22,786 nucleotides of DNA. It comes from a virus. The stretch spans positions 1 to 22,786 of the IMG/VR virus record IMGVR_UViG_3300049225_000477, one strand, 5' to 3'. The translations under genes were made by a program, and so were the position numbers. The notes beneath the pieces were generated by a model. The model ran no database searches, was not told the origin of the DNA, and was given only the letters and a program-made list of their open reading frames with translations. Below, one piece after another: positions 1,629 to 20,763 of this stretch. Each line of letters begins with the position of its first letter. The stretch's first letter is position 1.

Positions 1629-1629
1629 T

Positions 1630-2601
1630 TTAAAATTGTTTTACTGACCCGTCCTTATAAACATATTTGGTTCCTCTAATACAACATTCTCTTATAGTGC
1701 TATAGGGACATAAAGTTATAGTTTTAGTATCTTTACCACTTGCAGCATCCGTTATACCTGCTTGGTATCCAATATTAAATAATGCCTTACTTTTAATGTA
1801 GATCTGTTCTCTTAGAGATAACCCTAATTTTGAAAAGTCTATACTATTAGGAAAACATTCACCCCATTGTGTAGTTTTAATATCAAATTCACTAAAATAA
1901 AATACAGGTTTACCATGATATTCTTTAGTTTCTTTAATTAAATGATGATCATAGTCCCACCTCCCCCTTAAGCTTTCTATTCTTGAGGCAAATAATAAGC
2001 ACCCATAGGATTCATCTCCAAAATTCTTTTTGATAATACCTTCACATTTGTCTATTTCTTCTTGATCAAAATATAATTTAGGTCTTGAATCTATATTTTT
2101 TAAGTCTTCATCTGTAAACCCAAATCTTCTTAAAATTTGTTCAGCAAGTGGTTCATCACAAGATCTTATCATTTCACCATCGTGGATTAAAGAACTATAA
2201 CAACGATCATGGTCTGTAAATACTCGGGTGAATTCTCCTTTACTAAAAAATTTATCAATATAAGGGTTATTTTTATGGATAATATCTTTATTATCTAATG
2301 CTTTATTTTTCCCTTGGTAACTCCAATTATTAACTCCAGGAATCATTTGTTTTACATATTCCTTTGTTGGTAAAGCTATTTTAATTTTAGGATATTTTTT
2401 CTTTAATGCTTCAAAGATTCCACTTCGTATTCCTAAATCTCCTATGCTATAACACATCCCCATAAAAGGGAACCAACCATCGTAATCTTTTGGTAAAGAA
2501 ACATCTTTAATATTTTCTAGATCATTTTTATGTACTCCTAAATAATCTACATTAACCCCTGCATCAATAATTTGATCATTTATAATGAACCACTGTCTCA
2601 T
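1630..2601 (-). CDS. Putative GT-B glycosyltransferase, heptosyltransferase (GT9)-like
   Basis: The 323-aa protein has an N-terminal segment FPFMGMCYSIGDLGIRSG (about 44-61) followed by a helix and KIKIALPT, resembling the GDxhxxTP-type nucleotide-sugar fold start of ADP-heptose-type GT9 enzymes. Near the C-terminus, ALFNIGYQAGITDAASGKD (about 274-292) resembles the conserved G-x-SG-x-x-hA donor-site region of that family. Overall similarity is weak and I recognise it by pattern only. It overlaps the upstream GT2 gene by 4 nt (ATGA) and is followed after 1 nt by another glycosyltransferase gene. Both neighbours support a sugar-transfer role. If not a glycosyltransferase, it could be a nucleotide-sugar-binding accessory protein. 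Confidence 0.45.
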   Translation of the reverse strand: MRQWFIINDQIIDAGVNVDYLGVHKNDLENIKDVSLPKDYDGWFPFMGMCYSIGDLGIRSGIFEALKKKYPKIKIALPTKEYVKQMIPGVNNWSYQGKNKALDNKDIIHKNNPYIDKFFSKGEFTRVFTDHDRCYSSLIHDGEMIRSCDEPLAEQILRRFGFTDEDLKNIDSRPKLYFDQEEIDKCEGIIKKNFGDESYGCLLFASRIESLRGRWDYDHHLIKETKEYHGKPVFYFSEFDIKTTQWGECFPNSIDFSKLGLSLREQIYIKSKALFNIGYQAGITDAASGKDTKTITLCPYSTIRECCIRGTKYVYKDGSVKQF

Positions 2602-3224
2602 AACGTGTCGTAATATGCGTTTTGTTTTTCTTGGCGATCAATTGTTTTAGGATGGTATAAAGATAATTGTTCAGTTGGTGGAATAGGAGCATATGTTTTA
2701 AAACCTTCTAAAACCTCATGTACCTTATTTTTCCATTTAATTTCAGGTTTATTTTTCCATATACGCCATTGGTAATCAGGATAATTTACCCAACCCTTAT
2801 CATCTACATTCCATCCCCACTTTTTAATATGTTCATCAGTTAACCCCTCAACTGTATTTACTCTAGGAACTAAATATACTTCATTATCAGGGTTATTACC
2901 TAATATTTCTGGGAGGTAACCTAGTAACACTTGATGAGGCATTTCATCAGCATCTATTTGGAATATATAATCTCCTGAACAATATTCTGTTAATTGGTTT
3001 TTCCAGTCAGCAAAATGACCATTAAAATCAAATCCCCTCCATGTCTGTACATTAGGTAGTTTATTGAATTTCAATAAATAATTTAATACTTCAGGATCAC
3101 CATTTTTGCTATCATATAGAATAACTATTTCATCTTTTATTCTCTTATTTTCTAATAGAAATGGGACAAGTTTCTGTATTTCAAGAAACTCATTACATAC
3201 TGTTATTGCATAACTTATTTTCAT
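2598..3224 (-). CDS. Glycosyltransferase family 2 (GT-A), short
   Basis: This 208-aa protein starts MKISYAITVCNE, the canonical GT2 opening strand, and has a clear DxD motif in FQIDADEMP (D91, D93), which binds the metal and nucleotide-sugar phosphates. A later W-KNKVHE segment (about 162-168) is typical of the SunS/WaaE-like branch of GT2, where it lies near the acceptor site. The protein is somewhat shorter than usual GT2 enzymes (about 230-300 aa) but looks complete. The stop overlaps the next start by 4 nt; the upstream 147-aa gene ends 6 nt before this start. No signal peptide or transmembrane segment is visible. Substrate unknown. Confidence 0.8.
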   Translation of the reverse strand: MKISYAITVCNEFLEIQKLVPFLLENKRIKDEIVILYDSKNGDPEVLNYLLKFNKLPNVQTWRGFDFNGHFADWKNQLTEYCSGDYIFQIDADEMPHQVLLGYLPEILGNNPDNEVYLVPRVNTVEGLTDEHIKKWGWNVDDKGWVNYPDYQWRIWKNKPEIKWKNKVHEVLEGFKTYAPIPPTEQLSLYHPKTIDRQEKQNAYYDTL

Positions 3225-3230
3225 ATTTTT

Positions 3231-3674
3231 CTATTCTGGTAATAATCCAATATATGAAAGAGCATCTATAAAATCACGTTCTTTAAAATATTTTATAGTA
3301 GTCATATCAGCTCTATGTTTTTCGCCTTTATATTTTTCTTGTTCTTCTTTTGGTATTTCAATAGCTTTTACTGCACCCCAATTCCAATTTTCTACATCTG
3401 TACCTGAGGCGAATATCATACCATTTTCTTTAACATTAACAGTATTAGGTAACCATATTAATTTAGTTTTAGGATCAGTCCATGCTAAATCTTTATAAAT
3501 TTCAGGTAAAACATCTACTTGTTCCTTATAAAATTCAGAACCTTCTAACATTAAAGTATTAGTCCAAAAACCACATGATAAACTATAATAATTAGTAATA
3601 TCTTTATTTATTTCTGTTTTATAACATAAATCTCCTCCGGATTTAGGGCAATTTATTATTTCATCATGATTCAT
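3231..3674 (-). CDS. Unknown 147-aa protein with degenerate Zn-ribbon-like N-terminus
   Basis: I do not recognise a named family. The first 37 residues contain CPKSGGDLCY (C9, C17) and, after a short hairpin-like stretch, SCGFWTN (C34). This spacing looks like a small zinc ribbon in which one cysteine has become serine (S12 in the first CPxC-like knuckle). The rest is rich in tryptophan and acidic residues with no catalytic signature I can name. It sits between two glycosyltransferase genes (1 nt and 6 nt gaps), so it is co-transcribed with them; whether it works with them cannot be told from sequence. The frame is well conserved in codon character and has a plausible ATG, so I regard it as a real gene. 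Confidence 0.75.
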   Translation of the reverse strand: MNHDEIINCPKSGGDLCYKTEINKDITNYYSLSCGFWTNTLMLEGSEFYKEQVDVLPEIYKDLAWTDPKTKLIWLPNTVNVKENGMIFASGTDVENWNWGAVKAIEIPKEEQEKYKGEKHRADMTTIKYFKERDFIDALSYIGLLPE

Positions 3675-3675
3675 A

Positions 3676-4968
3676 TTATATTTTATTTAGTTTAGGTAAA
3701 CCAATATTAGATAAATTTAGTGTATTCATTTTTGGAAAATCTGGGAGGTTTTTATTAAGTTGATCTTCTACTAAGTCTTTCATTTTATCCCAGCTAAAGG
3801 TATCTTTAATATACTTTTTTTGTTTTCTAGATCGAGATAAATGTTTTTTATAATGTTTATACACTTGTCTTAAGGAACTGATAGAATTTTGGGGGTCAAC
3901 TTGAAACCATTTAGCTTCTTTTATTAACCAATTATTAGAAGCTGATCCATGAACATTTTCTAATTTACCAGGAAGTAAAACATTATATTCAGTTTTTAAA
4001 AAATCTATATGACCACTCCAACCTGAAGCTATAATAGGTTTACCTGTAGTAGCAAATTCTAATAAAGGTCGACCAAATCCTTCCCCCTTAGTAAGACTAA
4101 CCATGGCTTTAACTTTAGGATGGTTATACAATTCATTCATTTCTGAATCATCAAATTCCCCATTTAATAGATAAATGTTAGGTAAATTAGCTTTACCATG
4201 TAAGTCTCTAATTTGTTTAATTTTATCTAAAATATTATCCCTACTACTGTATGAAGCTACCCCAATTGAAGATTTTAAAATAAGTGCTGGTTTTTTACCT
4301 ATGCCTTTTTTAAAGCTTTCATAAAAAGCATTAACTAATACACCAACATTTTTTCTGTCGTGTCCATATTCTCCTTGCATCCAATGTCCAACAAACAAGT
4401 AACAAAATTCTTCTTTTATATCTTTAAAATTAATTGTTTTAATTTCTCCACTTGTTATGGGTTTGTAAGTAGATACATCTACTCCCTCAAAAATAACTTC
4501 AATTGGTTTTTCTAATTTTACTTTGCCTACAATTTGACCTGTTCTTTTATCTTGTCTATCATAAACCATTTTTTCAAAAGTATCTTTAGCAAATTGTGAT
4601 GAAACCCAATTTATATCCATCCTATTTAAACCTTCTATCCATTCTGCTTTACATGCGGTGGCTTCAATACCTGCTGTTAGACCGATATTGTATTTTCCAA
4701 TAGGTTGAAATTCATTAGGAATTGTAATTTGCATCCAAATTTCTGGTTGGGTTTTTTGCCAATCTTGAGGAGCCATATGTTTATATAAAAATCTCCATTC
4801 AGGGTGGTCTTCACAAAATCCCCAAGAGGTTTCACCCCATTTTTGGGATAATAATTCTACTTTATATTTATCTAACTTAATAATAGCTTTAACTATATCT
4901 CTTGCTCTTGCCCCATATCCTGAATAAGTATCAAAAGGGCAGCTTATAACAAATCTTGGTTTACTCAT
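3676..4968 (-). CDS. Glycosyltransferase family 4 (GT-B)
   Basis: The 430-aa protein has the two-domain layout of GT4 enzymes. The N-terminal domain includes the glycine-rich loop YSGYGARARD (15-24). The C-terminal domain carries the E-x7-E motif in GEGFGRPLLE (E296, E304), followed by GKPIIASGWSGH, the usual donor-nucleotide-binding stretch. FVGHWMQGEYGHDRKN (about 192-207) occupies the position of the phosphate-binding R/K. These residues support retaining transfer from a nucleotide sugar. The start shares one base with the stop of the upstream GT4 gene (TAATG), a coupling arrangement. Cytoplasmic by absence of signal or membrane segments. Donor and acceptor cannot be predicted. Confidence 0.88.
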   Translation of the reverse strand: MSKPRFVISCPFDTYSGYGARARDIVKAIIKLDKYKVELLSQKWGETSWGFCEDHPEWRFLYKHMAPQDWQKTQPEIWMQITIPNEFQPIGKYNIGLTAGIEATACKAEWIEGLNRMDINWVSSQFAKDTFEKMVYDRQDKRTGQIVGKVKLEKPIEVIFEGVDVSTYKPITSGEIKTINFKDIKEEFCYLFVGHWMQGEYGHDRKNVGVLVNAFYESFKKGIGKKPALILKSSIGVASYSSRDNILDKIKQIRDLHGKANLPNIYLLNGEFDDSEMNELYNHPKVKAMVSLTKGEGFGRPLLEFATTGKPIIASGWSGHIDFLKTEYNVLLPGKLENVHGSASNNWLIKEAKWFQVDPQNSISSLRQVYKHYKKHLSRSRKQKKYIKDTFSWDKMKDLVEDQLNKNLPDFPKMNTLNLSNIGLPKLNKI

Positions 4969-6407
4969 TAATATATAATTTTATGATTTAAAAATTTACC
5001 TTTATAATTATTTGCATTAATTACTTCATATTTTTCTCTTGGTTCCCATACATCAAATAACTCGTCTAAAGCATTTATTACTCTTTTTGCTTGATGTGTA
5101 GAAGTAAATCCGGCTTCATCACTTAAAGCCCATTCTCTTCCTTTTAACCCTCTTCGTTTAAGTTCTTTTCTACCTAAATTATAACATTCTTTAATTCTTT
5201 CAAAAGCATCTTCCCAAGTACATCTATCATCATAAATGTATGGAGTTGGAGGGGAACCTTGAATTGATCTTGATGTTGGGTAAACGGGGAATGCCCATTC
5301 ACCATGTTCTTTATATGTACCCCTATGATTAGACGGAACATCAGCACTTGGTGTAAACCATTTCCCATTTTCATCTATAAATCTCATTTGGTCTTGCATG
5401 CCTCCTGTAACATTAGCAATAATAGGGGTTCCTGCCAACATAGATTCTGTGTTAGCTAACCCCCAACCTTCATTAGAAGATAATAGTATATGAACATCTG
5501 CTATATTATATAACCAATTTAATTGTTGTTCAGTTAATTTTGAATCTATAAAAATTACATTTTTGTGGTAATCTTGATCAAATAAATATTCTTTTACTTT
5601 AGGTAAATCAGTTCCAGCGTTAGTTACTCTTTCAACTTTTAATACCATATAACAATCTTTAGCTTTTTCTTTAGGTAAAGAATCTAAAAATGCTCTAAAA
5701 GCCATCATAGCATCTGGGATTTGTTTTCTTCTGATATTTCTTGAGTTAAAATAAAGAACAAATTCTGGGTCTTTGTTTTTGAATATAGATTTTTTAAAAT
5801 TAATTAAATCTAGATCATTATCCATAAGTGGGAAAAAATGGGTAATATCTTTACCATGAGGAACATATTTAAAAATTCTATTACCTTCATGTCCTTTTAA
5901 TACTAATTTATTAATATTAACAGTTTGTTTTGAAATCCCCATTAATAAATCACATGCCTCATAATATGGTCTATTATACATAGGAGCTGGGTAATCATCC
6001 CAAATATTTAAGTAAGTGATTGGGATTTTTTTTCTAATTTCTTGTTCCATACTCCAAATATAGGTAAAATATCTAGGGTCTGTGATTAAAAAGAGTGCAT
6101 CTGGTTTTTCTAATTTAATTATTGATCTTAATACTTGTGAATCCCCATATCCAGAAGCAGGATACAATAGCACAGATGAATCATTTATTCCCATAAGTTC
6201 ATTAGTATTTTGGGATAAATCTAATCTTTTTCCTTTTTCAGGATGGTCTATAGAACCAGCTATCTGGACCCAATTAAAGTGGTGGGAGGTATGTAATACA
6301 ATTTCTTTTGCTATAGTAGCAACTCCAGAATGTACTCTAATATCGTCGCAAATTAGAAGTATTTTTTTTCTTTTATCCTTAGGGATATATTTAAAGTCTT
6401 TATTCAT
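4968..6407 (-). CDS. Glycosyltransferase family 4 (GT-B)
   Basis: This 479-aa GT-B protein starts the glycosyltransferase run downstream of the small DNA-binding-like protein. The N-terminal Rossmann region is KKILLICDDIRVHSGVA (14-30). The donor domain holds NSRNIRRKQ (221-229), supplying the phosphate-contacting R/K, and the E-x7-E motif in NEGWGLANTE (E313, E321) followed by AGTPIIANVTGG. These are diagnostic of GT4. A C-terminal extension with an aromatic-rich stretch (about 360-400) is longer than the minimal family fold. It overlaps the upstream 66-aa gene by 8 nt and the next GT4 gene by 1 nt. It could act sequentially with its neighbours in building one glycan. Confidence 0.88.
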   Translation of the reverse strand: MNKDFKYIPKDKRKKILLICDDIRVHSGVATIAKEIVLHTSHHFNWVQIAGSIDHPEKGKRLDLSQNTNELMGINDSSVLLYPASGYGDSQVLRSIIKLEKPDALFLITDPRYFTYIWSMEQEIRKKIPITYLNIWDDYPAPMYNRPYYEACDLLMGISKQTVNINKLVLKGHEGNRIFKYVPHGKDITHFFPLMDNDLDLINFKKSIFKNKDPEFVLYFNSRNIRRKQIPDAMMAFRAFLDSLPKEKAKDCYMVLKVERVTNAGTDLPKVKEYLFDQDYHKNVIFIDSKLTEQQLNWLYNIADVHILLSSNEGWGLANTESMLAGTPIIANVTGGMQDQMRFIDENGKWFTPSADVPSNHRGTYKEHGEWAFPVYPTSRSIQGSPPTPYIYDDRCTWEDAFERIKECYNLGRKELKRRGLKGREWALSDEAGFTSTHQAKRVINALDELFDVWEPREKYEVINANNYKGKFLNHKIIY

Positions 6408-6641: not shown

Positions 6642-7616
6642 TTACTCAAAATGCGCCTTTGCTCCACATAATTCTTTATCTTCCCCATAAGGACAAAATG
6701 TACAATTCCATTTAGAAGGTGATTTTGGATAATCTATTTCTTTAATATTTCCATTTGAGCTAAAACATTCTGTTATAAAATCATTTATAGCATTATTAGC
6801 TCTATTTATTTTTATTTTCCCACTAGGAGGTACAAATGTTTGTACTCTATATGCTTGATGAGGTGACATTATTTTTTCATCATCCCAATCTAATACTTTT
6901 CTTTTAACAATAAAAAACTCAATATCAATTTTATCTAATGGGATTCCATATTGTTCAGAAAAGAATTTTTTATATAATATTAACTGAAAGTGTTTATCTT
7001 CGTTTTTCTTATCATATGAGTTCCATCCTTTAGTACTGGTTTTTATGTCGATTATTTTAAATGTATCTGTTGTTTCACAGTATGTTACAACATCTAGATA
7101 CCCCATGTATAATATGTTGTTATACATTTTATTTGGCGCAATTACAATTGGTATTTCACAACCAACTAAATATGTACCTTTTTTACTAAAATATCTACTA
7201 CGTTTTTTCTTAAACCACTCTAAAATAGCTACTCCATCTTCAAAAAATTCCCTCATTTCTTCAGCAGAAGAAAAATGTTCATTATTATTAGTTTTGTATT
7301 GTTTTTGATATTCACCTATAAATTTTTCTTGAAAAAATTCTTCTATATTAATTTCCCTATCAGCAGCAGCTGCAGATTTTTCATACATTACATCTAAATA
7401 ATGTTGCATTACTTCATGTACAGCTGTCCCAAATACAGTGTGTATAGAAGAATTAAATCTTTTAATTTTATCCTTATATTGGAGTTTCCAACGATAAGGA
7501 CAACTTCGGAAAATTGACATTTGAGAATAGGATATATTCTTTTGATATGCAAAATTAATTTCCTTAGGTGGATTATTTTTAATCTCCTTTACTATTTTAG
7601 GTATTTTTTTAGCCAA
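6642..7616 (-). CDS. PD-(D/E)XK nuclease, Cas4/RecB/AddB-like with predicted Fe-S cysteines
   Basis: The 324-aa protein shows the ordered motifs of the RecB/Cas4 branch of PD-(D/E)XK nucleases: SYSQMSIFRSCPYRW at the start (C39), GTAVHEVM (H67, E68), GYLDVV (D175), IIDIKTS (D190, K192) and HFQLILY (Q211, Y215). The C-terminus has C305-x2-C308-x8-C317, which with C39 makes the four-cysteine set that holds a 4Fe-4S cluster in Cas4 and AddB. No helicase domain is attached. Such standalone enzymes are common in T4-like phages and probably process DNA ends in recombination or replication. No cas gene or CRISPR array is present, so an adaptation role is not supported. It follows the Nmad1-like gene after 1 nt. 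Confidence 0.85.
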   Translation of the reverse strand: MAKKIPKIVKEIKNNPPKEINFAYQKNISYSQMSIFRSCPYRWKLQYKDKIKRFNSSIHTVFGTAVHEVMQHYLDVMYEKSAAAADREINIEEFFQEKFIGEYQKQYKTNNNEHFSSAEEMREFFEDGVAILEWFKKKRSRYFSKKGTYLVGCEIPIVIAPNKMYNNILYMGYLDVVTYCETTDTFKIIDIKTSTKGWNSYDKKNEDKHFQLILYKKFFSEQYGIPLDKIDIEFFIVKRKVLDWDDEKIMSPHQAYRVQTFVPPSGKIKINRANNAINDFITECFSSNGNIKEIDYPKSPSKWNCTFCPYGEDKELCGAKAHFE

Positions 7617-7617
7617 A

Positions 7618-8091
7618 CTATTTTTTCCATTTGTCTCGACCTACTAAAAGACCGATTATTCCATAATTGGCAACATCAATAAATGTATCTTGCATACCTT
7701 CACCTTCAACAAATGATCTACCATTTATTAATAGATTTTTTAAACGTGATATTTTATCCGTTAACCTAATACACAACCCAGTTAGTGAGAATTGTTTATC
7801 ATCGCTGTTATTAACGATATCTCCGCCTAAAGCAATGTTATTTAAACCATAGTCCATATGCTTACGAGCAAACATTTCATACATTTCTTTTTGAATTTGT
7901 TTAAATTCTTTAGATAATTCAGGGTATTCTTTTTCAAATATTTTAATATCTGATTTTGATCCTGATTTGGCGTTCATTATTTCTCTATCGCTCATAACTT
8001 TTGATAATTGGACTGCGTTGGAAGCAAAATGCCCCCCACTATTAATTTTATTTTCTAAACTCTCCATGTATTTTTTGACTGAATCACCCAT
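7618..8091 (-). CDS. DUF1599 / nucleotide-modification-associated domain 1 (Nmad1)-like protein
   Basis: The 157-aa protein contains EMFARKHMDYGLNNIALGGD (about 72-92), then LCIRLTDKISRLKNLL (106-121), and DTFIDVANYGIIGLL (about 135-149). The order K-x-x-DYG, RhxDKhxRL and D-x-x-x-DhANY is what I associate with the Pfam DUF1599 (Nmad1) family, helical proteins often encoded in phages near nucleotide-modifying genes. Its acidic and basic residues resemble those of all-alpha NTP pyrophosphohydrolases, but no activity is established from sequence. It overlaps the upstream 76-aa gene by 8 nt. Its presence in a phage that also carries folE and a MazG-like enzyme is suggestive of nucleotide-pool remodelling, not proof. 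Confidence 0.6.
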   Translation of the reverse strand: MGDSVKKYMESLENKINSGGHFASNAVQLSKVMSDREIMNAKSGSKSDIKIFEKEYPELSKEFKQIQKEMYEMFARKHMDYGLNNIALGGDIVNNSDDKQFSLTGLCIRLTDKISRLKNLLINGRSFVEGEGMQDTFIDVANYGIIGLLVGRDKWKK

Positions 8092-8314
8092 TGATTTGTT
8101 CTTTACTGTCTGAAAAATATGTATTTAGTACTGCAAGTCTATCATCTGCATCAACTAGATTTATAAGTGCTTCTTCAGCATTTTTATAAAAATCTTCTGT
8201 TGAATGGTCTCCAATACCAACTGCCTTATTACCCAGTAATTCAAGTGATAATAATGCTTTAGCTTTATCTGCTTCAGCAGATGTTTTTAACATAGTGTAT
8301 AATTCTTTTGTCAT
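8084..8314 (-). CDS. Unknown small acidic helical protein (76 aa)
   Basis: I do not recognise the family. The protein is predicted mostly helical and acidic, with an alanine/leucine-rich segment (AEADKAKALLSLELLGNKA, about 13-31) and a second helix around EDFYKNAEEALINLVDADD (40-58). There is no catalytic motif, signal peptide or membrane segment. Its start overlaps the stop of gp62 by 4 nt and its stop overlaps the next start by 8 nt, so translation is likely coupled to the clamp-loader gene. Position and coupling make it a real gene; a replication-related accessory role is only a guess. Confidence 0.7.
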   Translation of the reverse strand: MTKELYTMLKTSAEADKAKALLSLELLGNKAVGIGDHSTEDFYKNAEEALINLVDADDRLAVLNTYFSDSKEQING

Positions 8315-8724
8315 TTTAATAATGGTTTTATTTCTTTTTTATCTAACCCTCTATTTGTTAATATACGACTAATTTCTGGGGTAGCCAATATATTTATATA
8401 TTCCTTTGCTTCTTTACTAGAACACTTAAAATAATTTTTAATATGGTCTGTTAAATCTTTATTAGGTTGTTTTACCTTGGATTTAATATACTTATTCCAT
8501 TTATTATTTTTAGGAATAAATTCTTTGTAAATAGAATATATCATTCTTTTTTCTTGTGGAGGAAAATCTTGCACATAGTTAACAACTTCAATATAATCTG
8601 GATTCATTGATATGAACCTGTGGACCATATAACTGTTCCAAACCTCCCAATCTTTATCAGTAAATGACTCAACAGGAGGTTTAGTAGTATTAATTGCCTT
8701 TAACCAATCAAAGATATTCTTCAA
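8311..8724 (-). CDS. 62: Clamp-loader small subunit (T4 gp62-like)
   Basis: The 137-aa protein matches the short gp62 type of T4-like cyanophages rather than the 187-aa T4 form. It opens NIFDWLKAINTTK, then has WNSYMVHRFISMNPDYIEVVNYVQ (about 29-52, equivalent to the y-VNR-LS segment), a lysine/proline stretch KNNKWNKYIKSK (72-83), and an ending LTDHIKNYFKCSSKEAKEYINIL. In T4, one gp62 joins four gp44 ATPases to load the gp45 clamp at primer ends. Clamp and gp44 are both encoded in the same window, which supports the call. It is separated from gp44 by an 81-aa gene with 2-nt gaps. Similarity is pattern-based, so confidence is moderate. Confidence 0.72.
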   Translation of the reverse strand: MKNIFDWLKAINTTKPPVESFTDKDWEVWNSYMVHRFISMNPDYIEVVNYVQDFPPQEKRMIYSIYKEFIPKNNKWNKYIKSKVKQPNKDLTDHIKNYFKCSSKEAKEYINILATPEISRILTNRGLDKKEIKPLLK

Positions 8725-8726
8725 AC

Positions 8727-8972
8727 TTAGTCCATTAATTCGTCAGCCAATTCTTCTCTAAGTTCTTTTGGAACTGATGACTTGAGAATTTTCTTAGTTG
8801 ATGGATCATAAAAAACTGGGATTGGGAGTAAAGCATCTTCATCTGTACCCATTACAAATTTAGATACAGTTCTTAATACTACTCCTTGTTGGAAAACTAC
8901 TCCACCATCAAAGTTTTTAATGGCTGTTGTATTTTTTAAATCAATTGGGGGTTGTTGTACTTGCTGTTGCAT
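8727..8972 (-). CDS. Unknown 81-aa protein between the clamp-loader subunits
   Basis: No family recognised. The N-terminus is a low-complexity glutamine/proline stretch (MQQQVQQPP), followed by a beta-rich core with GGVVFQQGVVLRTVSKFVMG (about 23-42) and PVFYDPSTKKIL (52-63), and a charged helix KELREELADELMD at the end. It sits 2 nt after gp44 and 2 nt before gp62, where in T4 the two loader genes adjoin directly. The location invites a role in clamp loading, for example as an accessory or clamp-binding peptide, but the sequence itself shows no defined motif. Tight packing and in-frame codon character support a real gene. Confidence 0.75.
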   Translation of the reverse strand: MQQQVQQPPIDLKNTTAIKNFDGGVVFQQGVVLRTVSKFVMGTDEDALLPIPVFYDPSTKKILKSSVPKELREELADELMD

Positions 8973-13801: not shown

Positions 13802-14737
13802 TTAAATTTCAAATGAACTTAAGGCATTTGTATAAGGATTTAAATCTAATGACCATTGCAAATCACTAAAGAACCCTTCTAATTTATTTAACAATATTGA
13901 ATCAAATACTTTCTGTCTATCAGCATATCTATCTAAAAATTCTTGTACCTTTTTAGGAATATCATAATCAAAAAATGCTAATGCCTCTATCTTGTATGGA
14001 TTATCTTTACAATAAATCCATTTAACTTTATCAGCCATAGTAATTAAATTATGTTTTCTATCTAATTTCCATAATTTTAATAAATCATTATAACGAATAG
14101 CTGCTCTTACAGGTGCAGGAGCACCTTTAAGTATCTCAGTAAACATTTCACCCGCTCTAGCACTTGTACCTTGATACTTTTGAAGTTTTTTAACAGCTGT
14201 TGGATTACCTAATTTTGCTAATGGTATCTCACCACCTAATATTTGCTTTTTAAACACTTTAATTTGGTCTATAATATTAGCTTTTTCTTCACCTTTAAGT
14301 ACTTGTTGAAGTATATCATTAAAAAATTCCCCTAAAATAGGTGGAAAATTTGCTTTCATAAACTCTAAACCTTTAATATCTAAAGATTCTTTTTCAATAC
14401 CTTCTTGTTTAGTAATCCATTGAGCATAACGACGGGTTGCTCTAAAATAGGCTGAACGGATAACACATTCTGTTTTCATTTCAAGTCTATGTTCTGGGAC
14501 ATTAAAGCATTCTTTAGCCAAAACATCATAATGGTCTGTGATAATATCCTGATATTTAAGTGCTACTTTTTCTAAAATATCATCTTTTTCTTTATCGCTA
14601 AATTCTTCAAAATTAGGGTATAAATGAAGTAAAATAGGTTCAGCATTAAAATAATTAGAATCAGTGTCTACATAAGCACAATAATTTTCATCATCTGCAT
14701 CACATATCCACCAAGGTGTTTCTTCTAAATGTTTCAT
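13802..14737 (-). CDS. 43: Family-B DNA polymerase, C-terminal fragment (motif C and thumb) of a split gp43
   Basis: This 311-aa protein is the missing end of the polymerase encoded at 18952-20763. Residues YCAYVDTDSNYF (19-30) are motif C with both catalytic aspartates (D24, D26). Downstream, IRSAYFRATRRYAQW (93-107) corresponds to the KKRY DNA-contact motif, followed by LDIKGLEFMKANFPP and a thumb-like helical C-terminus. The N-terminal piece ends just before this point; 603 + 311 = 914 residues compares with 898 for T4 gp43, and motif C would fall at joint position 627 against 621 in T4. It lacks any intein sequence or splice nucleophile, so the halves should assemble non-covalently. Its ATG shares one base with the preceding stop (TAATG). 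Confidence 0.88.
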   Translation of the reverse strand: MKHLEETPWWICDADDENYCAYVDTDSNYFNAEPILLHLYPNFEEFSDKEKDDILEKVALKYQDIITDHYDVLAKECFNVPEHRLEMKTECVIRSAYFRATRRYAQWITKQEGIEKESLDIKGLEFMKANFPPILGEFFNDILQQVLKGEEKANIIDQIKVFKKQILGGEIPLAKLGNPTAVKKLQKYQGTSARAGEMFTEILKGAPAPVRAAIRYNDLLKLWKLDRKHNLITMADKVKWIYCKDNPYKIEALAFFDYDIPKKVQEFLDRYADRQKVFDSILLNKLEGFFSDLQWSLDLNPYTNALSSFEI

Positions 14738-15120
14738 TAATATTTTTTATATGATTTTTCTTCTACTAACCCTGATGATGTTAAAATGTTAATTAATTTT
14801 TTAACTTCACATCTTTTATCGTTTGTAATATACACAGAACGAGCCAATTCTACAAATTCTTTATCAAATCTCTTTTCACGTTCACAATCTCTAATCCAAT
14901 CTTCTATGTCCCAAAGTTGCCCATTAATCTTAGCTAATTCAAGATAATGATTTTGTAATTGACCATCATGTTTTTCAAATAATTCTATAACTAAAGGGTT
15001 AAGAGCATCAAACTCAACCATAATATTAGTTAACTTTTCTTCATCTTCTATTTTGAGCAATTTTAATTCTAAAATTGAAATTTTGTCTAATAATTCTCCG
15101 TTTGAAATTTCTACTAACAT
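14737..15120 (-). CDS. DUF6165-like small protein
   Basis: The 127-aa protein begins MLVEISNGELLDKISILELK and ends with VYITNDKRCEVKKLIN and a final EEKSYKKY; between these are LWDIEDWIRDCE and FDKEFVELARSVY. This ordered set (GELhDKhxILEhK ... LWxhEDxIR ... LARSVYxxND) is what I associate with DUF6165, a family of mostly helical proteins found in bacterial polysaccharide or LPS loci. No enzymatic function is established. It is the last gene of the cassette that splits the polymerase and overlaps the polymerase C-terminal gene by 1 nt. The company of glycosyltransferases agrees with that family context. Confidence 0.62.
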   Translation of the reverse strand: MLVEISNGELLDKISILELKLLKIEDEEKLTNIMVEFDALNPLVIELFEKHDGQLQNHYLELAKINGQLWDIEDWIRDCEREKRFDKEFVELARSVYITNDKRCEVKKLINILTSSGLVEEKSYKKY

Positions 15121-15130
15121 ATTTTTATTT

Positions 15131-15394
15131 TTAAAATGATCTTTCCCCAGATATTGGTGGTAAATTTACAGGTGCATTTCCATTTGAGTCTAAATCATCT
15201 CTTAATTCTAATACTACTTTATAAGGTACTCCATTTATTTTAAACTGACCTCCTTGTTTAAGCATTTTTCTAAAAAAGTTTTCTTGTTTTTCAGACCAAT
15301 TTTCACTTAATTGTATTATTTCATCTTTAGATACATTCTTTCCCTCAGATGTAATATGCATATTTTTTCTTATCGATTGTTTTTTTAAAGCCAT
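15131..15394 (-). CDS. Unknown basic 87-aa protein
   Basis: No family recognised. The N-terminus is basic (MALKKQSIRKNMH), followed by a helical segment SKDEIIQLSENWSEKQENFFRKML (22-45), a GGQFKINGVPYKVVLEL strand pair (48-64) and a polar tail. No catalytic motif, signal peptide or membrane segment. It sits 2 nt after a glycosyltransferase-like gene and 10 nt before the DUF6165-like gene, within the cassette inserted between the polymerase halves. Codon character and tight spacing indicate a real gene. Confidence 0.7.
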   Translation of the reverse strand: MALKKQSIRKNMHITSEGKNVSKDEIIQLSENWSEKQENFFRKMLKQGGQFKINGVPYKVVLELRDDLDSNGNAPVNLPPISGERSF

Positions 15395-15396
15395 AA

Positions 15397-16314
15397 TTAT
15401 GTATTTTTACCTATTTTTGTTTTTGATTCTCTTAATTCATGTAATTCTATTTTTTTCTCTCTACATTCTACTGCTTCCTTAAAATTACTTGGTTTATGAT
15501 AGGAAGTATATGGGTAATCATAAGTAATCCAATAAGTATGGGGGAGAATTTCCCCAAAATTATTAAAGGTTAAAATGTCAGCTGGTAATAATAAATGTTC
15601 TGGATTCCAAAACCATAGCTTCCATACATCTGTAGAATCTGGTTCTGTTCTAGAGAAAAATACTCTATAATCATCCCTAATATCATATATATCATACCCC
15701 ACCTCTATAAAAGAATGAGAAAAAATTACCTGAGAAAATTCCCCTTCAATATAATTATTTGTAGCATAATGGGGAAGTTCTCCAAACTTATCTAAAACTT
15801 TATTTAAAACCTCACCCGAAGATATACCTGTAGAGTGTCCTGCATGTTTTTTATAATGGTGTGCAAGTATTGGTTCTTTTACTAGGGGACAAATATAACC
15901 ACAATTACCATAAAAATTAAATTTATTTATTAAATATTGATCCCAATTATTTTGAACAAAAAAATAATCATCTTCATTAAATATATAATAATCATAATCA
16001 TTTTTATATGCTTTAAAAGTATCACTCCAAGCACCATAACTTAAACCCTTATTTTCTCTTGTAATAATAGTTACTTTAGAACCTTGTATTTGGTCTGGGA
16101 CTATTTTTTCAATTTCTGGGATATATTTTTCATGTTCTTTTTCTAGATTAAATACTAAAAATATATCGTTAAGATTATGTGAATAATTAGATAAATAAGC
16201 TAAATGGTTTCTTAAATAAAATAGTTTATCTTCTTTATTTTCATTAATTTCTTTTCTTCTATCCCCTAGCCAAAAGACAGCAATATAACAAGATTTTTTA
16301 CCCATATTAAACAT
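15397..16314 (-). CDS. Glycosyltransferase-like protein (GT-A fold)
   Basis: The 305-aa protein has a GT-A-type pattern: an opening strand CYIAVFWLGD (9-18), ITRENKGLSYGAW (84-96), like the ENxGxxxGA segment of sugar-surface glycosyltransferases, and a metal-site candidate IFNEDDYFF (111-119). The second half carries histidine and aromatic clusters (ILAHHYKKHAGHSTG, about 149-163) that could form an acceptor site. No membrane segment. It overlaps the acetyltransferase gene by 8 nt with the ATG at 16314; the internal M4 at 16305 would avoid the overlap and is equally plausible. Part of the sugar cassette within the split polymerase. The specific reaction is unknown. Confidence 0.65.
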   Translation of the reverse strand: MFNMGKKSCYIAVFWLGDRRKEINENKEDKLFYLRNHLAYLSNYSHNLNDIFLVFNLEKEHEKYIPEIEKIVPDQIQGSKVTIITRENKGLSYGAWSDTFKAYKNDYDYYIFNEDDYFFVQNNWDQYLINKFNFYGNCGYICPLVKEPILAHHYKKHAGHSTGISSGEVLNKVLDKFGELPHYATNNYIEGEFSQVIFSHSFIEVGYDIYDIRDDYRVFFSRTEPDSTDVWKLWFWNPEHLLLPADILTFNNFGEILPHTYWITYDYPYTSYHKPSNFKEAVECREKKIELHELRESKTKIGKNT

Positions 16315-16780
16315 TCTTGTACATTAAAACTACATCAACAAAACCCTTTTTTTTATTATAAAACTTTTCAGGAATAATACCTATATTTTTAAACCCTAGT
16401 TTTTTATATAAATTATATGCTCTAAAATTAGATACTTGAACCTCTAAGTAAAACCTTCTTAAATTTTTATCTTCTTTAAGTTGTTGTATTATTTTTTGAT
16501 ATGCTTCAAAAGCATAACCCTTACCCCTAAAATCAGGATGTAAATCAAGACCTATATAAATAGTTTTATTTTTACTATCATACTCTGATGTTCTGATATA
16601 TCCTGCTATTTTATCTTTATTTTTTACTCTAATTACATACCATTCAGGGTTAGTTGTTGTAAACCATTCTATAGTTTCTTTTAATGTAAAAGAAGTAGAA
16701 TCATTTAAATAATCTAAACAATAATCCCTAATAATTTTTAGTTCTTCTAAATCATCAAATTGTAACTTACTTACTTTCAT
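16307..16780 (-). CDS. GNAT-family N-acetyltransferase (RimJ/RimL-like)
   Basis: The 157-aa protein has the full GNAT fold order: an N-terminal strand-helix (KLQFDDLEELKIIRDY), beta strands WYVIRVKNKDKIAGYIRT (47-64), motif A with the acetyl-CoA loop LHPDFRGKGYA (80-90), and motif B VQVSNFRAYNLYKKLGF (115-131) with N118. It transfers an acyl group from acyl-CoA to an amine. Directly upstream, separated by one glycosyltransferase-like gene, is a DegT aminotransferase, so a natural guess is N-acylation of the amino sugar that enzyme would make; many GNATs instead modify proteins. It overlaps the upstream gene by 14 nt and the downstream gene by 8 nt. Confidence 0.88.
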   Translation of the reverse strand: MKVSKLQFDDLEELKIIRDYCLDYLNDSTSFTLKETIEWFTTTNPEWYVIRVKNKDKIAGYIRTSEYDSKNKTIYIGLDLHPDFRGKGYAFEAYQKIIQQLKEDKNLRRFYLEVQVSNFRAYNLYKKLGFKNIGIIPEKFYNKKKGFVDVVLMYKNV

Positions 16781-17738
16781 GTCTATTTAAACTTTTAAAT
16801 TTATTTTTATCTATTTTATTAAAGTCATATGTAACTATTTTTTTATTATTTCTAATAATAGTTAAATTTTGAATATCATTAATGTTTTTTATGGGATTTA
16901 AATGCCATGCGCCTAACTGATTATCATAATCAATATAGTCTTTATTATCTATTAAAATTTTTACATTATACGAAGACACGTTTTCTTTTAATAATGTTTG
17001 GGGACGATTCCAAGAAAATACTAGTAAATTATCCTCTTTATCTACAACAGGAGCTACCCATATATCTTCACCTCCTGAATAGTACTTATTTATTTTAATA
17101 TTATTTTCAAATAATAATGTATGAGATTTTGATAGTTTATTAGGTTCGTTATTTAAAATTTTTAATTCATGATCTTCAATTGTTCTAATGTGTCCCGTTG
17201 ATAATTGATGTTTTAATTCTTTTTCATTACATATAAACCATTGTTCATTAATTTTATCTAAATGAAAAGATATAGGGAAACTAATAATAGAAGGTTGATA
17301 ATTTGTACCATAATACACTAAACTATGTTTATCTAAAAGAATAGAATTTTCTACAAATTCGTCTGCAGATAATAGTTCTGTGTCGTATTCAATGCAATGA
17401 ACTTTTTTATATCCTTCATTCTTTGCTGTCAATAACCCTAAGGTTACTAATTTCCAAGCAGCTATAAAATGATTAAAAGGTCTATTTTCAGTAGTATAAA
17501 TAGTAAAATTATCACTTTCGTAATACATTATGTATTTGTATTCAAAATCTGTTAATAATATATTTGAAGAATCATAAATAAAATAATTTACTTTATTAAT
17601 AATATCCTCTGGAATACTACTATGGCTAACTACCATAATATCAAATAGTTTTTTATCTATAGAAGATATAAAATCTCTTAGTAAATTTTTCCTTTCATCA
17701 TCAGGAGTATATGCTGTTATTAGAAATAAATCCTTCAA
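16767..17738 (-). CDS. Putative glycosyltransferase-like protein with DxD-type site
   Basis: The 323-aa protein starts LFLITAYTPDDERKNLL (4-20), a typical GT-A opening, and has KVHCIEYDTELL (112-123) where a DxD-like metal site is expected after a hydrophobic strand. The region before it (FNHFIAAWKLVTLGLLTAKNEGYKKVH) is the helix that normally precedes that strand. The C-terminal third is beta-rich and may be a separate binding domain. No membrane segment is evident. It begins 1 nt after the aminotransferase stop and overlaps the GNAT gene by 14 nt. I call it by fold pattern and context; a non-catalytic role is possible. Confidence 0.55.
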   Translation of the reverse strand: MKDLFLITAYTPDDERKNLLRDFISSIDKKLFDIMVVSHSSIPEDIINKVNYFIYDSSNILLTDFEYKYIMYYESDNFTIYTTENRPFNHFIAAWKLVTLGLLTAKNEGYKKVHCIEYDTELLSADEFVENSILLDKHSLVYYGTNYQPSIISFPISFHLDKINEQWFICNEKELKHQLSTGHIRTIEDHELKILNNEPNKLSKSHTLLFENNIKINKYYSGGEDIWVAPVVDKEDNLLVFSWNRPQTLLKENVSSYNVKILIDNKDYIDYDNQLGAWHLNPIKNINDIQNLTIIRNNKKIVTYDFNKIDKNKFKSLNRHESK

Positions 17739-17739
17739 C

Positions 17740-18936
17740 TTACCATCCTTTTTTAATACATTCTACAATATATTCTCTTTCTTCTTCTGTTACCCACCAA
17801 CCAACAGGAATATTAACTACTTTTCCTATGGTTTTATCTAAATTAGGCAAATCAGTTCTAAACTCAGATGTACAAGTATGCTTATCATTTCTTTCATGTA
17901 CCTGGGATACTGTGATGTTACATTCATCCATATGTTTATAAAAGCCATCCCTGTCATCTACTAGCATAGTATAAATCCAAAAAGCAGAATCATGACCTTC
18001 TTTTCGTTCTAATAAAGTAACTCCTTTAATGTCTTTTAGATTTTCATCATAATAAGCGGCATTTTCTTTATGTTTAGTAACTATATTTTCCATAAATTTA
18101 AAGTTCTCAATACCTACAGTAGCACAAACATCATTCATATGAAATTTAAAACCCCATTCCTCTATATCAGCTTCACATCTAAAATCTTTTCGATCACCAT
18201 CTCTATCAATCCCATACCATCTAATTAATTTACCTCTACTATGTAATTCTTTATGAGGACTAAATAATAAACCACCATCAATTGATGTTACATGCTTAAT
18301 AGCTTGTAACGAAAACATAGTCAAGTTTCCATTAGTACCAATTGGCTTTCCTTTATATTCAGATCCAAATGAATGAGCTCCATCTTCAATAAGAGCAGGA
18401 GCCCAACCGAATTTTTTACGAATATTATTTTGGATTTCTTTAATACGATCTAAATCCAATGGATACCCACCCCAATGAACACCCATAATAACTTTAGTTT
18501 TTTTAGTAATTTTACTTTCTAAATCATCTAAATCCATATTTAGGGTTTTAGGGTCAATATCTACCCATTTAATTTTTAACCCATTAGCTAATATAGGCCA
18601 ATTTGAAGCAGTACAAGTCATTGCAGTACATAAAACCTCATCCCCAGGTTTTAAACCAGGCCATTTGTGTTGTACCCAAGCTAATCCTTGAAATACATCT
18701 TCTAGGTGTTCTTGAGGTTTTTTAAGTAGATGTAATGCCATATGTAAAACAGAAGTTCCAGCATTTAAAGTTTGAATGTAAGGGTGTTTAAAATAATCTT
18801 TTAGATTACTTTCAAATTCTTCTACTTTAGGACCTTGTCCTATAAAACCACTATTAAGTACATCTACAACTTTTTCTCCTGCTTTTGGAGACATAAATAC
18901 TTTAAATAATGGAATTTTGTTTTCTGGTTTTTTCAT
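17740..18936 (-). CDS. DegT/DnrJ/EryC1/StrS-family PLP aminotransferase
   Basis: The 398-aa protein is full length for this family. NAGTSVLHMALHLL (58-71) is the phosphate-cup segment, IEDGAHSFGS (183-192) contains the PLP-ring aspartate (D185) and the stacking histidine (H188), and SLQAIKHVTSIDGG (209-222) holds the Schiff-base lysine (K214). These enzymes transaminate nucleotide-linked keto-sugars, giving amino sugars such as perosamine or 4-amino-4,6-dideoxy sugars; the exact product is not readable. It lies 15 nt downstream of the polymerase N-terminal gene, opening the cassette, and is followed by glycosyltransferase-like and acetyltransferase genes. No sugar dehydratase is in the window, so the keto-sugar must come from the host or genes outside. 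Confidence 0.93.
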   Translation of the reverse strand: MKKPENKIPLFKVFMSPKAGEKVVDVLNSGFIGQGPKVEEFESNLKDYFKHPYIQTLNAGTSVLHMALHLLKKPQEHLEDVFQGLAWVQHKWPGLKPGDEVLCTAMTCTASNWPILANGLKIKWVDIDPKTLNMDLDDLESKITKKTKVIMGVHWGGYPLDLDRIKEIQNNIRKKFGWAPALIEDGAHSFGSEYKGKPIGTNGNLTMFSLQAIKHVTSIDGGLLFSPHKELHSRGKLIRWYGIDRDGDRKDFRCEADIEEWGFKFHMNDVCATVGIENFKFMENIVTKHKENAAYYDENLKDIKGVTLLERKEGHDSAFWIYTMLVDDRDGFYKHMDECNITVSQVHERNDKHTCTSEFRTDLPNLDKTIGKVVNIPVGWWVTEEEREYIVECIKKGW

Positions 18937-18951: not shown

Positions 18952-20763
18952 TTACCACATTGGTCTTGGTTGTTCAATAATATTTGGATTAGTTATAACT
19001 TCTTTACTTTCTTTTTTATCTGTTAAACTTAAACTAATTTCTCCTCGCATAACTTTATTCATATGCCTGTTAGCACATAGAGCTGATTCTTGTATAATTC
19101 TGTGACCTGATAATGTAATTGCTTCACTTAGTATGGATTGATTCATACCATATCTAAATGAGGGTAATGCTGTTGCTCCATATAAACTGTTAAGCAAAAT
19201 TTTCATTGTATATTGCATTAAATGATTATATTCACCTGCTTCTGTATCCCCTGATTTATATGCTTTTTTCATACGTCCTTTATATAAAACACGTTCTTCA
19301 AACCATTTTTTAAGTATAGTGGATAATACTGCTTCTTTATCTGTTCTAAACATTGAACCATTAGCCGCTACTGCTAAATCATTTTGTTTGATCATTTCAA
19401 CTAACCTACCAGCATTAACATAGGTTTGTTTTCGTTTTGCATTTTCTACTAATAATTTTTCTTCGGGGTCACGTTCTTTTAAATCGTTAAGACCCAATCT
19501 ATTATTACGGTCATCTGCATCTATAATACGACCCACGAATGTTTCTTTACCAATGTTAATTGACATAATTATAGATGGATACAATGATGTTAAATCCTCA
19601 TCAAACATATACTTGTATAATCCCGCTTTGGGGCAAAAAAGGTATCCTCCGGCATAACCGTCTTTCTTTTGTGGATTAGGTTCTTTAGGTGGTGGGATTA
19701 TATTTTGAGATAATAAATAAGCTGAAATTGCTCCATCTTGGGTTACACTATTAGAATAAACTTCACTATAATTATGTTTACCTTTATGTGATAAGTTTTT
19801 AGTTAAAGCAATATATTGTAATTTTTCATCTAATTTTTGAAGTATTTCAACATCAACAAAATTATATTGGATAAACTTTTGTATATCGGTTTCAAATAAT
19901 TGATCTAAATTTCCTTCATACTCAACTTTATTCATACCAACATATTTCTCTCCAATAGCATCTAATTTCCAACTGGGTTCATCTTTCCAACTATATTTTT
20001 TATGTAAACGAATATAATCAAGTGATTCAACTCCTACAATATCAACATATTGATTTCGTTTATAGAAAAATTTGGAGAATTTCTTAGATTCTACTTTACC
20101 TAAAGGTGATAAATGATCAGCAAATTCCTTACCTATTGTATTACACATTCTATAATATAAGTAAGGTATATCAAAATAATCTGAGTTATAACCAATTAAG
20201 ATATCAGGATCTATGTCCCTGATTATTTCAATAAATTTAGCTAGTAATTGACTTTCAGTATTACAAGGTATAATTTCTTTATTTCTAGCTTTAGTATGTT
20301 TAAGTTGATTTTTTTTATCAAGAATTAAAATATGCCAAGTATCTGGGGTTTTATCCCACCAAGCAATTGAGGTAATAGGCATTGGGGCACTTTCAATATA
20401 ATCTTCAGTTAATGCCCCTCCAATTTCACACTCAATATCAAAAAATACTTCCCTATGTCCTGAAGAAGGTACATCATTAGTTCCATATCTTTCTACTAGA
20501 AATTTTTGATGGATTTTCATATCATGGAAATGCAACCCAGGAGTATTTTTATCACTATAATTTGGATTTTTAGAAAAAAACCAATTATTGGTATGCTTTA
20601 AATATTCACCATTTAATCCAATATTAGTGTGATCTTCTTCCTTACATTCTTGATATGCTATATTTTCATAAGGAATAACTTGGTGACCCTTATCTTCTTC
20701 CCAAAGATGCATTTCCCAAACATTATGTCCTAATTTTTTACCTTGATAACACTTTTTATACAT
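18952..20763 (-). CDS. 43: Family-B DNA polymerase, N-terminal fragment (exonuclease, motifs A and B) of a split gp43
   Basis: The 603-aa protein covers the N-terminal, 3'-5' exonuclease and most of the palm/fingers domains. Exo I is FFDIECE (D109, E111), Exo II YNSDYFDIP (D198), Exo III YNFVDVEI (Y300, D304), motif A DLTSLYPSI (D390) and motif B KILLNSLYGA (K521). All catalytic residues are present, so proofreading should be intact. It then stops after a short polar tail (ending EQPRPMW) before motif C. Motif C is supplied by a separate gene 4.2 kb downstream (13802-14737). Alone it could not polymerise. Start choice: ATG at 20763 shares one base with the preceding stop (TAATG), and the N-terminus aligns in length with T4 gp43. 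Confidence 0.93.
   Translation of the reverse strand: MYKKCYQGKKLGHNVWEMHLWEEDKGHQVIPYENIAYQECKEEDHTNIGLNGEYLKHTNNWFFSKNPNYSDKNTPGLHFHDMKIHQKFLVERYGTNDVPSSGHREVFFDIECEIGGALTEDYIESAPMPITSIAWWDKTPDTWHILILDKKNQLKHTKARNKEIIPCNTESQLLAKFIEIIRDIDPDILIGYNSDYFDIPYLYYRMCNTIGKEFADHLSPLGKVESKKFSKFFYKRNQYVDIVGVESLDYIRLHKKYSWKDEPSWKLDAIGEKYVGMNKVEYEGNLDQLFETDIQKFIQYNFVDVEILQKLDEKLQYIALTKNLSHKGKHNYSEVYSNSVTQDGAISAYLLSQNIIPPPKEPNPQKKDGYAGGYLFCPKAGLYKYMFDEDLTSLYPSIIMSINIGKETFVGRIIDADDRNNRLGLNDLKERDPEEKLLVENAKRKQTYVNAGRLVEMIKQNDLAVAANGSMFRTDKEAVLSTILKKWFEERVLYKGRMKKAYKSGDTEAGEYNHLMQYTMKILLNSLYGATALPSFRYGMNQSILSEAITLSGHRIIQESALCANRHMNKVMRGEISLSLTDKKESKEVITNPNIIEQPRPMW

Follow-up and report, generated by a model that had tools for sequence, protein, structure and literature searches.

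Why would a T4-type phage keep six genes, several of them of sugar type, between the two halves of its DNA polymerase? The question is raised by IMG/VR virus record IMGVR_UViG_3300049225_000477, the whole of which, 22,786 nucleotides (nt), is the window analyzed here. A preliminary description of this DNA had read positions 14737-18936, inside the polymerase locus, as a pathway segment for making and transferring an N-acylated amino sugar. All of the genes that it named there are present, on the minus strand; it had passed over a sixth gene in the slot (h87, 15131-15394), the split of the polymerase and the variable cargo of the gap. Judging from the genes and their relatives, we regard an N-acyl amino-sugar pathway segment as a well supported prediction. 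We also think it fairly probable that the six gap genes form a glycan module which is read along with the replication genes and which would place an acylated amino sugar on a virion-type acceptor. The genes of the locus, in the direction of reading, are the following.

18952..20763, minus strand: PolN, N-terminal part of a T4-type family-B DNA polymerase (gp43), 603 amino acids (aa); phrog_262, PF03104, PF00136 and an RB69 polymerase match

17740..18936, minus strand: DegT-family sugar aminotransferase of the pyridoxal 5'-phosphate (PLP) type, 398 aa; PF01041, K214/D185

16767..17738, minus strand: GTa, predicted GT-A-fold glycosyltransferase with a TTG start; alignment, AlphaFold2, Foldseek and VIA

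16307..16780, minus strand: GNAT N-acetyltransferase, 157 aa; PF00583

15397..16314, minus strand: GTb, predicted GT-A-fold glycosyltransferase, 305 aa; alignment, AlphaFold2, Foldseek and VIA

15131..15394, minus strand: h87, an 87-aa protein found in the polymerase gap of 75 of 75 loci

14737..15120, minus strand: DUF6165 protein, 127 aa; PF19662

13802..14737, minus strand: PolC, C-terminal part of the polymerase, 311 aa, starting just before motif C (YVDTDS); phrog_262

The DegT protein matched PF01041 at 233 bits (cut-off, 19.8) and has both the PLP-binding lysine K214 and D185 intact, as had been claimed for it. ColD, a dehydratase relative within the DegT family, is without the PLP-binding lysine. 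The phage protein is presumably a transaminase acting on a keto sugar nucleotide. By far its nearest solved relatives are AtmS13 from AT2433 biosynthesis (384 bits) and CalS13 from calicheamicin biosynthesis (347 bits); the matching structures (4xau/4zas) scored 384/383/347 bits and the next group 117. Both of these enzymes belong to antibiotic sugar pathways of actinomycetes, a setting that differs from that of the phage. A bacterial source of the gene was sought by a pattern scan of a genome collection, and the one match was on a contig labelled Woesearchaeota. That contig (L163, PBPJ01000021.1), from a metagenome-assembled genome, has genes like the window's clamp loader, glycosyltransferase and DegT, and it is apparently phage sequence that was binned with the archaeal assembly.

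The GNAT and DUF6165-like proteins were likewise correctly named, scoring 74.1 bits to PF00583 (cut-off, 20.7) and 50.8 bits to PF19662 (cut-off, 27), respectively. The two proteins that had been called glycosyltransferase-like had no Pfam or NCBIfam match giving a name, GTb having a weak match to a PHROG glycosyltransferase (E, 9e-4), but their modeled folds agree with the label. AlphaFold2 models were built from alignments of viral relatives and had a mean predicted local distance difference test score of 85.7 for GTb and 87.5 for GTa. The GTb fold was nearest to SpsA (Foldseek E, 1.7e-7; VIA Z, 14.6 to 1h7l, with 181 residues aligned at a root mean square deviation of 2.8). For GTa, Foldseek placed TarS (E, 1.6e-6), glycogenin and TarP nearest, and VIA gave a Z of 13.7 to 3d5n_E (160 residues aligned at a deviation of 3.1) and of 13.5 to glycogenin 1zcy. 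The GT-A part of GTa covers approximately residues 1-223, and its C-terminal part is mostly beta and barely covered by the fold comparisons. Invariant residues in the alignments are H114 and E117-Y118-D119 in GTa and E114-D115-D116 in GTb. Both models thus predict GT-A folds with a conserved acidic motif.

A scan of viral contigs found 92 relatives of DegT, and 80 loci were retained. Neighbors were counted within three open reading frames (ORFs) of DegT, and the chance level was estimated by drawing other ORFs of these loci at random 500 times. An acyltransferase lay within this distance in 66 of the 80 loci. The count was 52 for GNAT (random mean, 15.4; maximum, 27), 11 for LbH acyltransferases (mean, 2.4; maximum, 6) and 3 for formyltransferases (mean, 1.2; maximum, 4), this last number not being significant alone, as random draws reached 4. 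GTb was found near DegT in 38 loci (mean, 10.7; maximum, 18) and GTa in 22 (mean, 7.4; maximum, 15). Two of the three acyltransferase kinds never occurred together in the 80 loci. Since these loci are not mutually independent, the count was repeated after clustering DegT at 95% identity, and 43 of 52 clusters have exactly one acyltransferase kind. Clusters with both formyltransferase and GNAT members number one at 90% identity and two at 85%, and in the polymerase gap of contigs L125 and L127 a formyltransferase directly follows DegT, where GNAT would be. GTb and GNAT are fused in 13 ORFs; GTb leads in 12 of these and GNAT in the remaining 1, and several of the ORFs belong to closely related contigs. 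Moreover, DegT, GNAT and GTb are found together at quite different addresses in viral contigs. The pathway segment proposed in the preliminary description is supported by the acyltransferases in 66 loci, their swapping and the fusions. In a dozen DegT loci (L063-L077, e.g., L074:14340-15269), a 3-oxoacyl-acyl carrier protein synthase III occurs near DegT. It is mostly accompanied by an LbH acyltransferase, a short-chain dehydrogenase and a PhyH dioxygenase, a hint that the amino sugar may carry a longer acyl group.

There is a viral precedent for such a set of enzymes. As described in the available text of two papers (PMC9614988, PMC10117803), Mimivirus makes UDP-N-acetylviosamine (UDP-Vio4NAc) with the dehydratase R141, the aminotransferase L136 and the acetyltransferase domain of L142. 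According to the same text, the second domain of L142 is a putative glycosyltransferase, the two domains are separate genes in some strains, and N-L142 was modeled on PglB. The phage genes are like that system in that a virus encodes an aminotransferase, an N-acetyltransferase and a glycosyltransferase, the last two fused or separate depending on the member. The combination of aminotransferase, N-acyltransferase and glycosyltransferase is found together in the window and in the DegT loci of its relatives. They differ in belonging to a T4-type phage, in the GNAT type of the acetyltransferase, in a dehydratase that lies outside the fragment, in their location within a split polymerase and in having a product and a target that are so far predicted. 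The swapping of acyltransferases beside one aminotransferase and the recurrent fusion of GNAT with GTb parallel the giant-virus Vio4NAc system and bring the sugar within reach of a test with two or three purified enzymes.

In many relatives, the DegT module adjoins a block of glycan genes, GT5-GT4-147aa-GT3. In the window the block (2598-6407) lacks DegT, whose module is found in the polymerase gap. The block is part of a glycosyltransferase cluster that runs off the window's left end and contains the following genes.

4968-6407, minus strand: GT5; PF00534 over the cut-off

3676-4968, minus strand: GT4; Pfam score just under the cut-off

3231-3674, minus strand: 147-aa protein, a member of this companion glycan cluster

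2598-3224, minus strand: GT3; PF00535 over the cut-off

1630-2601 and 639-1628, minus strand: two further cluster proteins up to the left end; no Pfam match

A homologue of the 639-1628 protein is annotated as a GDP-mannose-dependent mannosyltransferase in Flavobacterium phage immuto. In this cultured phage (vB_FspM_immuto), a DegT that is 58% identical directly follows GT5-GT4-147aa-GT3, and the GroEL is 59% identical. The immuto DegT is thus in a glycan cluster, unlike the window's DegT in the polymerase gap, and a search of the immuto genome with the window's PolN, run without a positive control, gave no match. In L007, a contig with a split polymerase, DegT and a fused GTb-GNAT are in the glycan cluster, and a different cargo gene accompanies h87 and DUF6165 in the gap.

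The preliminary description had noted that no dehydratase is in the window and, indeed, neither PF01370 (epimerase/dehydratase) nor PF00483 (nucleotidyltransferase) had a match in the 22.8-kb record. It had proposed looking for these enzymes elsewhere in the genome, and Gmd-like and RmlB-like genes do occur on the contig of a sister phage, L125. That contig has DegT-formyltransferase-GTb in its polymerase gap, and the two dehydratase-like genes are about 22-24 kb away. There, GT5-GT4-147aa is followed by a sugar island with the Gmd-like gene (392 bits), the RmlB-like gene (290 bits), a GDP-fucose-synthase-like gene and two other DegT-like genes, all under curated cut-offs, together with a NodU-like protein, transketolase parts and a fused glycosyltransferase. 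The window's cluster stops at the point where the island of L125 starts. A very similar island is present in L103, which has a split polymerase and no DegT in the gap. The transketolase of the L125 island is present as two small genes (L222:2262-3340), and a similar pair is found in L223.

More widely, dehydratases were screened in 50 records, consisting of 46 of the 80 DegT loci plus L003, L085, L125 and L127, many of them short fragments. The Gmd model gave three proteins over its cut-off and three more at 392-396 bits (cut-off, 415), and the RmlB model gave one over its cut-off and three more at 281-291 bits (cut-off, 365). UDP-glucose/GDP-mannose dehydrogenases were found in 11 of 25 records, in five of them less than 1 kb from an epimerase-like gene. 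An aminopentose route, via a UDP-glucose dehydrogenase and a decarboxylase, was tested on one such neighboring gene, in L163, which reached 80 of the 294 bits of a pentose-synthase model, and the possibility was kept. The dehydrogenases recur in short form, with open frames of 276-296 aa in 7 of these 11 records, and they frequently have an epimerase-like gene next to them (e.g., L163:14477-16327).

The pathway that we infer, in its sugar, its order of steps and its acceptor, would run as follows. A 4,6-dehydratase of the phage or the host would make a nucleotide-linked 4-keto-6-deoxyhexose, most likely the DegT substrate. DegT would transfer an amino group to this nucleotide-linked keto sugar, and GNAT would acetylate the resulting amine. 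GTb and GTa would then transfer the 4-acylamino-4,6-dideoxyhexose, similar to Vio4NAc or N-acetylperosamine (Per4NAc), onto a glycan. The companion cluster at 639-6407 may help to build the acceptor glycan. For the acceptor, a cytoplasmic virion protein is more probable than an exported polysaccharide. The gene order had been taken as the order of these steps; this part of the preliminary description does not hold, since DegT-GTa-GNAT-GTb is not literally the biochemical order. We give credence to the model because of the Mimivirus precedent, the acyltransferase swapping and the fusions. Candidates for the sugar are a Vio4NAc-like one by the RmlB route, a Per4NAc-like one by the Gmd route, and an aminopentose.

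Several observations weigh against this pathway. The DegT protein scored under every NCBIfam equivalog or subfamily cut-off listed, including those of PseC (201 of 423.5 bits), ArnB (PRK11658; 147 of 631 bits) and WecE (102 of 435 bits). AtmS13 is assigned to aminopentose biosynthesis, which makes a pentose another possible substrate for DegT. RimI was a better match to GNAT (56 bits) than PseH was (34.6 bits; cut-off, 93.1), both under the cut-off, and its target could therefore be a protein. Fourteen of the 80 DegT loci have no recognized acyltransferase nearby, and a strong dehydratase was found in only 9 of the 50 records screened (4 over the cut-off, 5 under). The full cassette is in the gap of only 2 of 75 other split-polymerase loci, and DegT with GTb in the gap of 4. 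The literature search gave no assay of any close relative.

As to the target, the preliminary description had allowed for the virion, the host surface or DNA, and the evidence favors the first and disfavors the last. A Polysacc_synt flippase (PF01943) was found in none of 23 records, several of them 100-322 kb long, in a search that matched 13 of 14 control genomes. A crude hydropathy scan gave no clear membrane helix in the window's glyco-proteins; these enzymes look soluble, and the acceptor would accordingly be a cytoplasmic protein of the virion. Together the two results favor virion glycosylation. Most of the records are fragments, so the absences of the flippase and, below, of PF00303 are only suggestive. 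The same sugar could instead be added to the O-antigen or capsule of the host envelope while infection is under way, perhaps as a means of blocking other phages. CTP_transf_like and MannoseP_isomer proteins, typical of envelope sugar pathways, do occur in the polymerase gap. Furthermore, lipopolysaccharide (LPS)-type glycosyltransferases are common in pelagimyophages and, in the accessible part of that study, are read as envelope decoration (PMC7029224). The lack of a flippase and of clear membrane helices speaks against an envelope target, although host export machinery could serve, and we consider such a target unlikely.

The six genes could also be unrelated cargo at a permissive boundary, with GNAT a RimI-like protein acetylase, DegT an orphan and no pathway in common. 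The varied gap cargo of other phages and the best GNAT score, to RimI, would fit such an origin. However, DegT, GNAT and GTb co-occur at differing addresses, partly fused, the acyltransferase kinds interchange, and the module adjoins GT5-GT4-147aa-GT3 in many relatives, all of which makes a chance assembly improbable. T4 glucosylates hydroxymethylcytosine, and the PF00303 thymidylate-synthase family includes hydroxymethylases. Sugar coating of the phage's own DNA bases, for which RB69 arabinosylation is published (PMC6024577, available portion), would suit the T4-like background, the position among replication genes and the PF00303 gene (representative, 294 bits) of 11 of the 80 other DegT loci, but is very improbable, in that PF00303 is present in 0 of 12 split-polymerase records (fragments, one of 138.7 kb), which speaks against hydroxymethylated, glycosylated bases, the GT-A folds are nearest to SpsA, TarS/TarP and glycogenin, and the glycan proteins seem too numerous for base modification.

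The glycan module that we favor is set into a polymerase that appears to be complete. PolN matched positions 28-567 of phrog_262 (E, 5e-113) and PolC positions 565-843 (E, 1e-42) of a profile with a length of 856, so no large part of the polymerase has been lost. PolN comprises the exonuclease and the first part of the polymerase domain and ends before motif C; the break is just ahead of the DTDS motif, and the cassette fills the gap between the halves. The slot is tightly packed, with gaps of 15, 1, 2 and 10 nt and overlaps of 14, 8 and 1 nt, PolC overlapping the DUF6165 gene by 1 nt. PolC scored 17.2 bits to PF00136 and 19.7 bits to PF20286, both under the cut-off. Its search against solved structures gave unrelated weak matches, and its identity thus rests on PHROGs. 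The two parts presumably assemble.

A scan found 472 relatives of PolC, and the best 80 were retained as loci. PolC is an ORF of its own in all 80. In one of them (L096:3300-4235) it is in two pieces of 185 and 114 aa, reflecting a further break or a sequencing error. The halves are separated in all 75 loci in which both were recognized as ORFs. The other five (L088, L099, L105, L134 and L137) are without a PolN ORF. The count leaves out no unsplit gene, as an ORF matching both halves occurs nowhere in the 80 loci. An uninterrupted polymerase is found among relatives in Microcystis phage Mel-JY01 and in L026. In L049 and L039 the halves overlap by 4 nt with nothing in between, a hint that the split preceded the arrival of cargo. 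Two shorter PHROG polymerase profiles, phrog_2062 and phrog_1918, meet some 50-90 residues upstream of the window's break and are read by us as split-polymerase families.

A T4-type polymerase made from two genes has been described, in the available part of one paper (PMC2988022), for Aeromonas phages 25 and 44RR, where gp43A and gp43B are separated by an untranslated spacer or a homing endonuclease. The window is like these phages in its two polymerase genes and unlike them in having metabolic cargo and h87 between; its separator is neither a homing endonuclease, an intron nor an untranslated spacer. A group I or II intron was rejected as the cause of the split, since the window gave no Rfam match at the gathering score, meaning that no known intron is present there, and the halves have separate starts and stops. 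No endonuclease family was found among the scanned cargo representatives, several of which match no Pfam family. An assembly artefact is ruled out by the separate PolC ORF in 80 of 80 loci and by the full cassette in contigs L004 and L085. In a 484-kb uncultured phage (L259, LR756508.1 258500-268500), the polymerase is broken at about the same motif, into ORFs at 864-3917 and 6923-8788 with four ORFs of at least 120 aa between them. Both the N piece and the beginning of the C piece contain intein-like sequence (Hint and Intein_splicing, under the cut-off); this break is perhaps a split intein, another way to the same split.

The gap has variable contents. Between the halves of the 75 loci, h87 was found in 75, DUF6165 in 37, DegT and GTb in 4 each, and GTa and GNAT in 2 each. 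Other cargo includes a cluster of 20 ORFs represented by a MannoseP_isomer cupin, a cluster of 15 represented by a CTP_transf_like protein, a formyltransferase in 2 loci, one FkbM methyltransferase and several small clusters for which no Pfam family passed the cut-off. The cargo that can be named is mostly sugar-type enzymes. Across 63 loci, 15 cargo families were found at the PolN/PolC boundary, compared with 6 or fewer at each of 14 other boundaries in this stretch of genes. These loci have 17 gap configurations, and 6 configurations occur among the 9 loci with a PolC at least 95% identical to that of the window, in two of which (L093 and L094) ORF picking hides h87. As cargo is also found at gp62/h157 (6 families) and gp45/Hsp20 (5 families), the gap is the richest variable spot and not the sole one. 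The h87 protein has no Pfam family over the cut-off. A scan with it as the query gave 33 loci, of which 31 adjoin polymerase halves; in the other two (L245 and L257), a polymerase half was not recognized. It could help the halves to assemble or mark an exchange site.

The cassette itself is also complete in L004 and L085, and against both, nonsynonymous divergence (dN) is far under synonymous divergence (dS) for all six slot genes, which are under purifying selection. Against L085, dN/dS is lowest among the slot genes for DegT, at approximately 0.09, and highest for GTb, at 0.40; the values for PolN and PolC are 0.08 and 0.03, respectively. It was considered whether DegT had entered the gap twice, and a quick tree needs two changes, yet a single clade is not rejected (approximately unbiased test, P = 0.277), so independent arrivals are not claimed. 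A defense system was also considered, and the six slot proteins had no PADLOC match. Promoter-like sites in the gap region numbered 44, compared with 57 in shuffled sequence, and terminator-like sites numbered 4, compared with 2.5.

We tentatively raise the possibility that surface-sugar genes are exchanged in this phage lineage at the split-polymerase junction, which would then be a dedicated docking site for them. With cargo anchored in an essential gene beside a constant h87, recombination between the conserved halves could swap the sugar coat like a serotype cassette. Split gp43, phage LPS-type genes in hypervariable islands and giant-virus acylated amino sugars are already known separately. 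No report of sugar genes in a split polymerase was found in the literature searched, which covered titles and the openings of abstracts, with most subscription papers outside it; sugar-type cargo in the split-polymerase gap across a phage group is a combination not met there. The known split T4-type polymerases hold a spacer or a parasitic endonuclease, whereas here a large phage group keeps other cargo with fast turnover, and much of what can be named is sugar chemistry. If the gap is a true exchange site, it would tie a highly conserved replication gene to a fast-changing surface trait and provide a simple marker for glycan cassettes in metagenomes.

The remaining genes of the window are also on the minus strand. 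GTP cyclohydrolase I, a phosphoribosyltransferase-like protein and a PRA-PH/MazG-like protein come first, followed by PolN, the six slot genes and PolC. Beyond PolC are a gene in the sliding-clamp position, Hsp20, GroES, GroEL, an AAA clamp loader, a small gene in the gp62 position, a PD-(D/E)XK nuclease and the glycosyltransferase cluster. The clamp-position and gp62-position genes gave no match in the Pfam search and are named by eye and from the order in Microcystis phage Mel-JY01. That phage has a similar order of polymerase, clamp-position gene, clamp loader genes, PD-(D/E)XK nuclease and glycosyltransferases and, unlike the window, encodes its polymerase in one uninterrupted gene of 2547 nt.

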